Assembly (NCBI GenBank): GCA_021647205.1
Contig: JAKIVD010000009.1
Location: forward strand, 62,001-126,000
Length of the DNA: 64,000 nt
Origin: Bacteroidales bacterium
Lineage (GTDB): Bacteria > Bacteroidota > Bacteroidia > Bacteroidales > F082
Direction of reading: 5' to 3'
In this document: positions 40,744 through 43,216 of the stretch, piece by piece
Numbering within the stretch: position 1 is the first letter of the stretch
Layout: every line of letters begins with the position of its first letter
Notes under the pieces: model-generated
What the model saw: only the letters and a program-made list of their open reading frames with translations
Told to the model about the DNA's origin: nothing
The model's database searches: none
Translations under genes and position numbers: made by a program

Positions 40744-41943
40744 CTACAATAGTTTTCGTTCTACATCTTTATCGCCTCTTCCGGAAAGGTTGATGATACT
40801 GATTTGATTCTCCTTCCCTTTTAGCATTTGAAGTGCAAGTGCCACGGCATGAGATGATTCGATGGCGGGGATAATCCCCTCACTTTTTGACAGTAACTTA
40901 TAAGCTTCGATGGCCTCAGCATCGGTAACCAGGTGGTAATCTGCCCTTCCCGTATCCTTCAACAATGCATGTTGCGGGCTAATGCCCGGATAATCCAAAC
41001 CGGCAGCTATGGAATAAGTGGGGTAAACATCTCCATTCTCATCAGAAAGCGCATAGGAAAAAGTGCCCTGGAAGACACCGGGTTTTCCCATGCTTAAAGT
41101 TGCGGCGGTTTTTCCAAAAACAGCACCTTCGCCGCCGCCTTCGGCACCATGAATGGCCACCGCTTCATCATACAAAAAATCGGCAAACAGCCCAATGGAG
41201 TTTGAACCGCCGCCCACGCAGGCAAACAGGTGGTCGGGCAGGCGGCCTTCTGCTTCCAAAAACTGCTGCTTTGCTTCCTTCCCGATAACACGCTGGAAAT
41301 AACCGACCATCGTCGGGTAAGGATGCGGCCCTACCTGCGAACCCAGCAAATAATACACATCGGGGTTTTCGATATAATACCCCAGTGCGGCATCCACAGC
41401 ATCTTTGAGCGTTGCCCGCCCCTCGTTGGTCAATACCAATTCGGCACCCAGCATTTCGATACGGCTTACATTCATCTTTTGCCGTGCGGCATCGGTTGCC
41501 CCCATAAATATTTTGCACTTCATCCCAAACAAAGCAGCAGCCGTTGCTGTAGCTACACCATGCTGACCGGCACCGGTTTCGGCAACAATTTCGGTAGCGC
41601 CCATGCGTTTGGCAAGTAATATTTGTCCGATGCAATTGTTGATTTTATGCGAGCCCGTATGGTTGAGGTCTTCCCGTTTCAAATATATTTTCGACCCTGC
41701 AATTTCAGACAGATTGCGGGCATAATACAAAGGGGACGGCCGGCCCACAAAGGTTTTCAGGTAATGGATGTATTCTTCCTCAAAATCAGGTTGCGATTTC
41801 GTTTGCTCAAAAAATGCAGCCAGGTTAAGGAGTTTCCCCTCCAGAACCGGTGGAACGTACATCCCTCCGTACTCCCCGAACAAGCCGTTTATTGATTCAT
41901 ATTTGTTTGTCTTAATTCCATTTTCAATTATTGATGTCTTCAT
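40744..41943 (-). CDS. trpB: Tryptophan synthase beta chain (orphan)
   Basis: A 399-residue TrpB1-type subunit that joins indole with serine to give tryptophan, using PLP. The PLP lysine is Lys100 in REDLNHTGSHKINN, and the phosphate-binding GGGSNSIG and the COMM/active-site segment ETGAGQHG are intact. It stands alone: no trpA or other trp genes are nearby and a terminator follows it. In many Bacteroidota trpB is the first gene of a trpB-E-G-D-C-F-A operon, so this may be a detached first gene. Upstream lies a Trp-codon leader with attenuator (42080-42210), which implies control by charged tRNA-Trp. Confidence 0.97.
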   Translation of the reverse strand: MKTSIIENGIKTNKYESINGLFGEYGGMYVPPVLEGKLLNLAAFFEQTKSQPDFEEEYIHYLKTFVGRPSPLYYARNLSEIAGSKIYLKREDLNHTGSHKINNCIGQILLAKRMGATEIVAETGAGQHGVATATAAALFGMKCKIFMGATDAARQKMNVSRIEMLGAELVLTNEGRATLKDAVDAALGYYIENPDVYYLLGSQVGPHPYPTMVGYFQRVIGKEAKQQFLEAEGRLPDHLFACVGGGSNSIGLFADFLYDEAVAIHGAEGGGEGAVFGKTAATLSMGKPGVFQGTFSYALSDENGDVYPTYSIAAGLDYPGISPQHALLKDTGRADYHLVTDAEAIEAYKLLSKSEGIIPAIESSHAVALALQMLKGKENQISIINLSGRGDKDVERKLL

Positions 41944-41987
41944 GTTTTCTGATTTTAAAATTATTGTTTTAAAGTTTACTCATCTTT

Positions 41988-42062
41988 TTATTTTTCATTT
42001 TCGGCAGCCTTTCCCTGCCATCGGAATATTGTCCGTTTTATCCAGTCTTGTACACCATTCAT
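41988..42062 (-). CDS. Possible 24-codon small ORF between attenuator and trpB
   Basis: An ATG at 42062 opens a 24-residue frame (MNGVQDWIKRTIFRWQGK..., ending TAA at 41988) with two Trp codons at positions 7 and 15. It lies 17 nt after the attenuator U tract and 44 nt before trpB. It is preceded by AAAACTGAAAAG without a strong Shine-Dalgarno. It may be a second regulatory uORF or chance. No family match is claimed. Confidence 0.3.
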   Translation of the reverse strand: MNGVQDWIKRTIFRWQGKAAENEK

Positions 42063-42079
42063 CTTTTCAGTTTTTAAGT

Positions 42080-42116
42080 AAAAAAAAAGCCGCCCCAAAT
42101 TAATGGGACGGCTTTT
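42080..42116 (-). terminator. trp attenuator terminator
   Basis: On the minus strand AAAAGCCGTCCC (42116-42105) pairs with GGGGCGGCTTTT (42096-42085), a 12-bp stem with one G-U pair and an 8-nt loop, followed by a U tract of nine (42088-42080). It lies 22 nt after the leader peptide stop and 137 nt before trpB. Part of its 5' arm plus loop, TCCCATT (42108-42102), is perfectly complementary to AATGGGA inside the leader ORF (42161-42155), giving a competing antiterminator. Confidence 0.88.
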
Positions 42117-42138
42117 GTATTTTTGTTCAATCAGTCAA

Positions 42139-42210
42139 TTACACAGCAAGCTCTTCCCATTGGAAAAAATCGTTGTGCCACCACCAATTGTTATTTGTTG
42201 CAAAAATCAT
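42139..42210 (-). CDS. trpL: trp leader peptide with Trp-Trp-Trp
   Basis: A 23-codon ORF starting ATG at 42210 and ending TAA at 42139. The peptide begins MIFATNNNWWWHND and continues FFQWEELAV, so four of 23 residues are Trp, three in tandem at codons 9-11 (42186-42178). It lies directly downstream of a Bacteroidota promoter and upstream of a strong terminator and trpB, the exact layout of a transcription attenuator. Stalling at codons 9-11 leaves AATGGGA (codons 17-19) free to pair with the terminator arm. A ribosome reaching the stop covers it. The product is assumed to act only in cis. Confidence 0.85.
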   Translation of the reverse strand: MIFATNNNWWWHNDFFQWEELAV

Positions 42211-42214
42211 ACGG

Positions 42215-42247
42215 CAAATGTAGAAAACATTTTAATGGTTTGACAAA
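42215..42247 (-). promoter_or_regulatory. Promoter of the trpL-trpB transcript
   Basis: On the minus strand TTTG (42247-42244), 21 bp, TACATTTG (42222-42215): both Bacteroidota elements at an accepted spacing. The -7 box ends only 4 nt before the leader ATG, so the leader mRNA would be leaderless or nearly so. The -33 box is 3 nt beyond the hldD stop codon. Confidence 0.8.
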
Positions 42248-42250
42248 TTG

Positions 42251-43216
42251 CTAATAATAATTTCCATCGACCAGGTAATTCTGCACATAATCGCCAATCC
42301 CTTCTTCCAGGGAGTGAAAAGCATTTCCGTAACCGGCATTTTTCAATTTACTCATATTGGCTTCGGTAAAATACTGGTATTTGTCGCGGATGTCTTCAGG
42401 GGTGTCGATAAATTCGATATCGGGTTTTAATTCGAGGGCTGCAAAAGTTGACTTTGCCAAATCAAGAAAGGTTCGGGCTTTTCCGGTGCCCAAATTGTAC
42501 AGACCACTATCGGGTTTGGCAGCCATTAAAAACAGGATAACATCCACTACATCTTTTACATACACAAAATCGCGCAGTTGACCGCCATCTTTGTATTCGG
42601 GGTTATGGGAACGGAACAAGCGTACTTTCCCGGTATCTTTTATCTGACCGAAAGCGTGAAAAATTACCGAGGCCATCCTCCCTTTGTGGTATTCGTTGGG
42701 GCCGTACACATTAAAAAATTTCAGTCCTGCCCAGAAGGGAGGTTTGCTGTCCTGTTGCAATACCCATTTATCGAAATCATTTTTTGATTCACCGTAGGGA
42801 TTCAATGGCTTTAATTTTTCGACGATGGTGTGGTTGTCGTCGTAACCGAATTCCCCCATGCCATAAGTAGCCGCCGAGGAAGCGTAAATCACCGGGATTT
42901 GATGCCTTGCACATCGCTGCCAGATTTGCTTGCTGTAATTCAGGTTCAGCACATCAAAGACTGCTTTGTCGAATTCTGTTGTGTCAGTCCGGGCACCGAT
43001 GTGCAGTACGGTTTCCACCTCACCGGGATGTGCATCAAACCATTGAAAAAAATTATCGCGTTGTATTTTATCAGCAAACAACTTGCCCGTCAGGTTTTTC
43101 TCTTTTTCCGTCTTTGAAAAATCATCCACCAGGATCAAATCTGTAAAACCGGCCTCATTCAGTCTGCCGGTAAGCACACTGCCAATAAAACCTGCTGCCC
43201 CTGTAACTACTATCAT
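42251..43216 (-). CDS. hldD: ADP-L-glycero-D-manno-heptose 6-epimerase
   Basis: A 321-residue extended SDR epimerase making the L,D-heptose donor for lipopolysaccharide inner core. The NADP Rossmann motif TGAAGFIGS is at the N-terminus. The catalytic Tyr/Lys pair is in NPYGESKNDFDKWV (about 140), with Ser in SSAATYGMG and the family segment FNVYGPNEYHKGRMASVIFH. It is of usual length. No other heptose-pathway gene is adjacent. Its stop lies only a few bases from the trpL promoter, so the end of hldD and the trp control region are tightly packed. Confidence 0.95.
   Translation of the reverse strand: MIVVTGAAGFIGSVLTGRLNEAGFTDLILVDDFSKTEKEKNLTGKLFADKIQRDNFFQWFDAHPGEVETVLHIGARTDTTEFDKAVFDVLNLNYSKQIWQRCARHQIPVIYASSAATYGMGEFGYDDNHTIVEKLKPLNPYGESKNDFDKWVLQQDSKPPFWAGLKFFNVYGPNEYHKGRMASVIFHAFGQIKDTGKVRLFRSHNPEYKDGGQLRDFVYVKDVVDVILFLMAAKPDSGLYNLGTGKARTFLDLAKSTFAALELKPDIEFIDTPEDIRDKYQYFTEANMSKLKNAGYGNAFHSLEEGIGDYVQNYLVDGNYY

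Follow-up and report, generated by a model that had tools for sequence, protein, structure and literature searches.

A probable tryptophan-codon transcription attenuator, followed by a second peptide gene, upstream of an orphan trpB in Bacteroidales

Transcription attenuation of the trp/his type is a classical mechanism, known from E. coli, and the switch described here is of this known kind. Bacteroidota, to our knowledge, use promoters of their own and no classical Shine-Dalgarno sequences. Leaders of this phylum could be mentioned in the survey by Lopatovskaya, Seliverstov and Lyubetsky or in an overview by Merino and others of how trp operons are regulated. The former, a comparative survey, is cited in PMC4833913. 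In the available sections of their article, Naville and Gautheret (2010; PMC2965389) give leader-peptide systems as known only in Proteobacteria and Actinobacteria, and add Firmicutes. For B. thetaiotaomicron, Ryan et al. (2020; PMC7366714) found some 5' UTR ORFs reminiscent of attenuator leader peptides, which were not validated; the words tryptophan and trp are absent from the available portion of that article. Our literature search, run mostly outside subscription journals, returned no characterised leader-peptide case in Bacteroidota. A second point of reference is TnaC, the leader peptide of the tryptophanase operon, in which W12, D16, I19 and P24 are the key residues (PMC10941005).

We analysed a stretch of 64,000 nucleotides from a Bacteroidales genome (the window), in which a ribosome-coupled transcription attenuator of the trp/his type very probably switches an orphan trpB whose product probably salvages indole. 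The case for the attenuator draws on the anatomy of the locus, its conservation, covariation of the pairing arms, modelled exclusivity of the folds, the lack of TrpA and IGPS matches and selection on a second small ORF. An initial annotation had interpreted the locus as a tryptophan attenuator, which our results support, and all the features that it listed were confirmed on the minus strand where it had placed them. The promoter (42247-42215) is of the Bacteroides type, with TTTG at 42247-42244 and TACATTTG at 42222-42215, separated by a 21-nt spacer. ORF1 (42210-42139) encodes the leader peptide MIFATNNNWWWHNDFFQWEELAV, with Trp at codons 9-11 (WWW, 42186-42178) and at codon 18. The putative antiterminator arm (region 2), AATGGGA (42161-42155), was assigned from complementarity and from the state model described below; as had been claimed, it is the exact complement of TCCCATT (region 3, 42108-42102). 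The latter lies within an intrinsic terminator (42116-42080), with a stem at 42116-42085 and nine T at 42088-42080; its place and T-tract agree with the initial annotation, but our scan counts 13 pairs in the stem instead of 12. Between this terminator and trpB lies ORF2 (42062-41988), overlooked previously, which from its coding signature and position would encode the peptide MNGVQDWIKRTIFRWQGKAAENEK, with Trp codons at 42044-42042 and 42020-42018. All these elements precede trpB (41943-40744), which codes for 399 residues without a single Trp. The window also contains a tRNA-Trp gene (anticodon CCA) at 2215-2288, about 40 kb from the trpB leader.

In the window, the ATG of ORF1 is only 4 nt past the -7 box. 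Among the 26 loci having a consensus -7 box, this gap measures 4-6 nt in 9 (window included) and 7-43 nt in the rest; at the loci with 4-6 nt, the transcript that carries ORF1 is probably leaderless or nearly so. The promoter type TAnnTTTG/TTTG is published for Bacteroides, and in B. thetaiotaomicron only ~3.7% of 5' UTRs are shorter than 10 nt (PMC7366714).

The trpB clade that we compared has 52 members: 12 came from a search of 61 genomes, three (L031, L032 and L035) were among the matches listed from named genomes, and 28 new loci plus 9 further regions were obtained from 393 genomes of the order, which gave 40 matches at an E-value of 1e-140. Three loci with too little upstream DNA (L006, L128 and L207) were left out, leaving 49 evaluable members. 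An attenuator was counted when the stop codon of a Trp-rich ORF lay 10-60 nt before a terminator. This arrangement precedes trpB in 45 of the 49, 44 of them from the first scan and L114 after more upstream DNA had been read; it is absent at L119, L129 (455 nt readable), L031 and L032. The tandem Trp codons expected of a peptide-leader attenuator (WWW, WW or WxW) are likewise found in 45/49, the WWW columns being common to 15 of 16 typed leaders and WW to all 16. As a ground for abandoning its reading, the initial annotation had named related genomes in which the Trp codons, or the pairing, are not kept. This was not the outcome: the leader persists at these loci and, as described below, its pairings covary. 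The 61-genome search also gave 18 further trpB loci (L013-L030), five of which (L013, L022, L024, judged by eye only, L025 and L027) show a similar leader; no leader was found outside the order in narrow tests. One named member of the clade, a Draconibacterium orientale MAG (L035), has the leader, the terminator and ORF2.

Three clade loci depart from the common arrangement. In L136, two attenuators, both complete with Trp ORF and terminator, stand in tandem between 512 and 173 bases before trpB; they are followed by an ORF2 that stops at the would-be second Trp. In L114, attenuator and ORF2 lie together between 664 and 519 bases before trpB, ~400 bases farther than usual. L004 (genome G001) has WRW instead of WWW in the leader, an in-frame stop in trpB and a stop at the second Trp of ORF2, which may reflect either decay of the whole locus or errors in the draft genome.

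A heptose-epimerase gene adjoins the trpB locus and ends at 42251, just upstream of the promoter. The whole element could on this account be taken for the ordinary terminator of the epimerase gene accompanied by a chance Trp-rich ORF, a reading that we regard as wholly improbable: a phylum-type promoter lies between the two, the element is kept in 45/49 loci, including, by visual inspection, loci with a different upstream gene end, and a control for chance matches yielded only three poor ones. This control searched for ORFs with WW or WxW that end 10-60 nt ahead of a terminator. The pool searched, 709,000 bases over the two strands, comprised the window and loci 139-239, some of which overlap, and included 12 regions around trpB of other genomes (L199-L210). 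The search returned 12 matches, eight from L199-L210, the window's own site and the three poor ones (L155, L169 and L170). In the window's genome TGGTGGTGG occurs at 119 places, against 99 for the control, and a scan of the loci, including 30 made from these places, gave only the three poor matches; TGGTGG with a T-tract occurs at 40 places in the genome against 42 for the control. Across the class, 23 of 295 genomes contained TTYTGGTGGTGGCAC, at 24 places altogether, and no attenuator was present at any of these places. Upstream of operon-type trpB, an attenuator was found in 0 of 40 genomes (out of 168 matching genomes), supposedly because trpB is not the first gene there.

We examined the terminator and its pairing with the leader. 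Only one terminator was detected in 41900-42300, where shuffles average 0.1, and it is intrinsic and situated between leader ORF and trpB, as in an attenuator. The leader folds with a z of -5.05 relative to its own shuffles, 0/200 being as good. Against shuffled leaders, the window's 7-base pairing by itself falls short of significance (z -1.05, p 0.14), and the window's own terminator ranks 17 of 44 terminators for its leader; support for this pairing comes from the family of loci. The duplex z relative to shuffled leaders averaged -1.62 over 49 attenuators (44 of the clade, four operon-type and L033), with p <0.05 in 33%. When own partners were compared with swapped partners in 44 loci (L033, L201 and the near-copies L005, L112 and L123 being dropped), 0/5000 permutations, uncorrected for kinship, were as good, and the own terminator fell within the best third for 32 of the 44 leaders. 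Leader and terminator sequences diverge widely across loci yet still pair, as seen in L131 (AGGGGATT/AATCCCCT), L121 (AGGAGAAA/TTTCTCCT), L205 (GCAGGAGGG/CCCTCCTGC) and L025 (GTCGTGAG/CTCACGAC).

In a state model of RNA made up to the terminator loop, regions 2 and 3 pair with a probability of 0.95 when a ribosome sits at any of codons 9-11, 0.01 in ribosome-free RNA and 0.00 with a ribosome at codon 18 or at the stop. Once the whole hairpin is made, the terminator reaches 0.94-0.95 in every state, that is, it wins at equilibrium, and antitermination would thus have to be kinetic. The proposal that a ribosome stalled at WWW causes antitermination consequently holds in the model before the hairpin is complete, but not thereafter. 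Similarly, a ribosome at the stop codon, proposed to cover AATGGGA, does abolish the antiterminator, but masks five of the seven bases under the assumed footprint. A ribosome at the fourth Trp codon also abolishes the antiterminator, which excludes codon 18 from the control codons. Model and covariation together point to an exclusive antiterminator freed by a ribosome on the control codons, a signal that is weak in the window alone.

For the transcription start point, the tRNA-Trp signal and the kinetic antitermination, we infer the following course. Transcription would begin only a few bases ahead of ORF1. With charged tRNA-Trp in short supply, a ribosome would stall at WWW and cover the stretch that otherwise occupies AATGGGA; the freed AATGGGA could then pair with the 5' half of the terminator while the 3' half is still to be made, allowing read-through into trpB. 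With plenty of Trp, the ribosome would continue to the stop and the terminator would form. After read-through, another ribosome could enter at ORF2, ~20 nt behind the T-tract. If the switch works in this way, it would imply tight transcription-translation coupling in Bacteroidota, on a transcript seemingly beginning almost at the start codon.

The identity of TrpB was established by a match to TIGR00263 of 532 bits (curated cut-off, 392.45). No match to TrpA or IGPS (TrpC) was obtained in the window's genome, which is 98.5% complete, while both were matched in all 14 control genomes; the earlier description of trpB as an orphan is thus borne out. A trpB at least 72% identical is present in ten genomes of the family, counting the window's own: none of the ten matches TrpA or IGPS, and nine have tryptophanase. 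In the window's genome tryptophanase is encoded at L313 (G000:C46:16685-18055; 688 bits to NF009709), and the 700 bases upstream of it contain no terminator and no convincing TnaC-like ORF. Because TrpA and TrpC are without a match and tryptophanase is present, TrpB probably salvages indole, perhaps recapturing the cell's own. If the switch works, bacteria with tryptophanase and without TrpA could limit indole recapture to times of Trp shortage. Tryptophanase proved uninformative as a mark of orphan trpB, being present in 53 of 61 relatives. In a tree of 50 TrpBs, the clade stands apart from eight operon-type trpBs with a support of 100/100. Genome G060 has a clade trpB in addition to TrpA and IGPS beside a second trpB, showing that a trpB of the orphan clade is not always alone.

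An ORF2-type peptide, typically M-x6-W-x7-W, is encoded in 28 of the 45 attenuated loci (27 aligned and L114). Eight loci have another Trp-bearing ORF at this place (L011, L012, L115, L126, L130, L131, L133 and L137), and nine are without a counted ORF2; six of these nine have the terminator directly before trpB, and one of the nine, L201, has a longer Trp-bearing ORF of a different kind. On the TrpB tree, for which L200-L206 are too short to be placed, ORF2 is found on most clade branches and is absent in the two deepest rows (L135 and L199) and in a supported group formed by L118, L119, L122, L123 and L125. Among the 27 aligned peptides, Trp occupies the first anchor in 25, the second in 25 and both in 23; the anchors are 8 apart and the second falls at codon 13-17, codon 16 in 15 of the 27. 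The first is Ser in L112 and L035, the second a stop codon in L004 and L136, and the tail beyond the second is variable. The Trp codons of ORF2 are conspicuous because TrpB itself is Trp-free in 40 of 42 near-full-length clade members. Ten close pairs of ORF2 differ by 31 synonymous and 27 nonsynonymous codon changes, with 18, 15 and 44 base differences at codon positions 1, 2 and 3, which indicates that the peptide is under protein-level selection. On these sequence comparisons, we take ORF2 to be a real coding unit and part of the switch. In L121, ORF2 lies 123 bases upstream of trpB and runs into it in frame with no stop. L011, L131 and L133 encode a different post-terminator peptide, which contains APWWWRG, with a strong hairpin right behind.

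The distance from the T-tract to the ORF2 start is 20.0±5.7 nt (7-32) in 28 loci, and that from ORF2 to trpB ranges from 104 to 519 nt, four loci making most of the spread (122±14 nt in 23 loci; 181-519 nt in L113, L117, L136 and L114). Our first guess, a reasonable possibility if somewhat short of an even one, is that ORF2 is a recoupling gene, at which a ribosome would enter behind the polymerase past the terminator and shield the ~120 nt to trpB from Rho; its Trp residues may in addition respond further to Trp shortage. The near-constant distance from the T-tract, kept even in the four loci where trpB is remote, and the variable tail suit this function. Plain recoupling, however, does not account for the conservation of the peptide or for the fixed spacing of its Trp, and the distance to trpB is also fairly even, the argument for tethering to the T-tract drawing mainly on the four loci.

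The bolder guess, unlikely but worth considering, is that ORF2 encodes a nascent regulatory peptide sensing Trp or indole, or serves as a second Trp-codon sensor, with a ribosome held near codon 16. The spacing and position of the Trp anchors, the share of synonymous changes and the Trp-free TrpB would fit such a peptide, whereas the stop at the second Trp in two loci would not. Likewise, counting from the first Trp, all 27 aligned peptides are without D at +4 and I at +7, the equivalents of D16 and I19 of TnaC, and the window peptide is also without P at +12 (P24), hence without three of the four key residues. Translational control through the trpB start was rejected, general sequestration not being seen: over 34 loci its mean access barely shifts, from 0.63 free to 0.72 with ORF2 masked, although it rises by 0.18-0.38 in L011, L126, L131, L138 and L200. 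A hairpin behind the second Trp was too weak (mean z -0.8).

It is improbable that the finished ORF2 peptide acts as a small working protein, for instance an amphipathic membrane-bound or TrpB-binding one. The protein-level selection and the in-frame arrangement in L121 would agree with such a role, but the peptide is very short, has a variable tail, matches nothing in Pfam at E up to 1 and is tied to the attenuator. A stricter ORF2 pattern matched in 8 of 61 genomes, against 1 for the reversed control; six of the matches are at the trpB leader and the others in G022 and G053. The CGATGG motif was not retained: NTNTTYCGATGG occurs at 93 places in the genome against 26 for the reversed control, an excess that may stem from coding sequence in another frame, and the FRW frame in 30 of these loci, mostly short open stretches, is unlike ORF2. 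By eye, an overlapping ATG frame inside CGATGG gave no conserved product. Returning to the sensing peptide, a broader though unlikely reading would be a two-peptide switch for the orphan TrpBs of Bacteroidota, in which a near-leaderless WWW attenuator reads charged tRNA-Trp while M-x6-W-x7-W, placed immediately past the terminator, represents a new class of regulatory nascent peptide gating read-through transcripts via Trp or indole. Whichever its function, ORF2 offers a conserved peptide that is directly testable.

How does this locus compare with described systems? At the leader no Rfam family reached its cut-off, the best being STnc240, an enterobacterial sRNA (44.5 bits, cut-off 55), and a T-box leader was found neither at gathering score, where the window scan gave five tRNAs only, nor among the weak matches listed. 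Trp_leader (RF00513) scored 18 bits against a gathering cut-off of 41; the enterobacterial trp mechanism invoked by the initial annotation therefore applies as a type of mechanism, but not as a match to the enterobacterial family. The short ORFs in long 5' UTRs of B. thetaiotaomicron resemble the present leader in having been likened to attenuator leader peptides and in sharing the promoter type. ORF2 resembles TnaC in being a short, regulatory-looking peptide with key Trp before an indole/Trp enzyme; in contrast to TnaC, it lies behind an attenuator and precedes a Trp-making enzyme. With the enterobacterial trp attenuator (trpL, RF00513), the locus shares an ORF with tandem Trp codons and mutually exclusive antiterminator and terminator before a Trp biosynthesis gene, but it differs by its three Trp codons, its near-leaderless start, its single orphan trpB and the additional peptide encoded past the terminator. 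What appears to be new here, with no claim of priority, is the occurrence in this phylum, the near-leaderless ORF1 and the peptide that follows the terminator.
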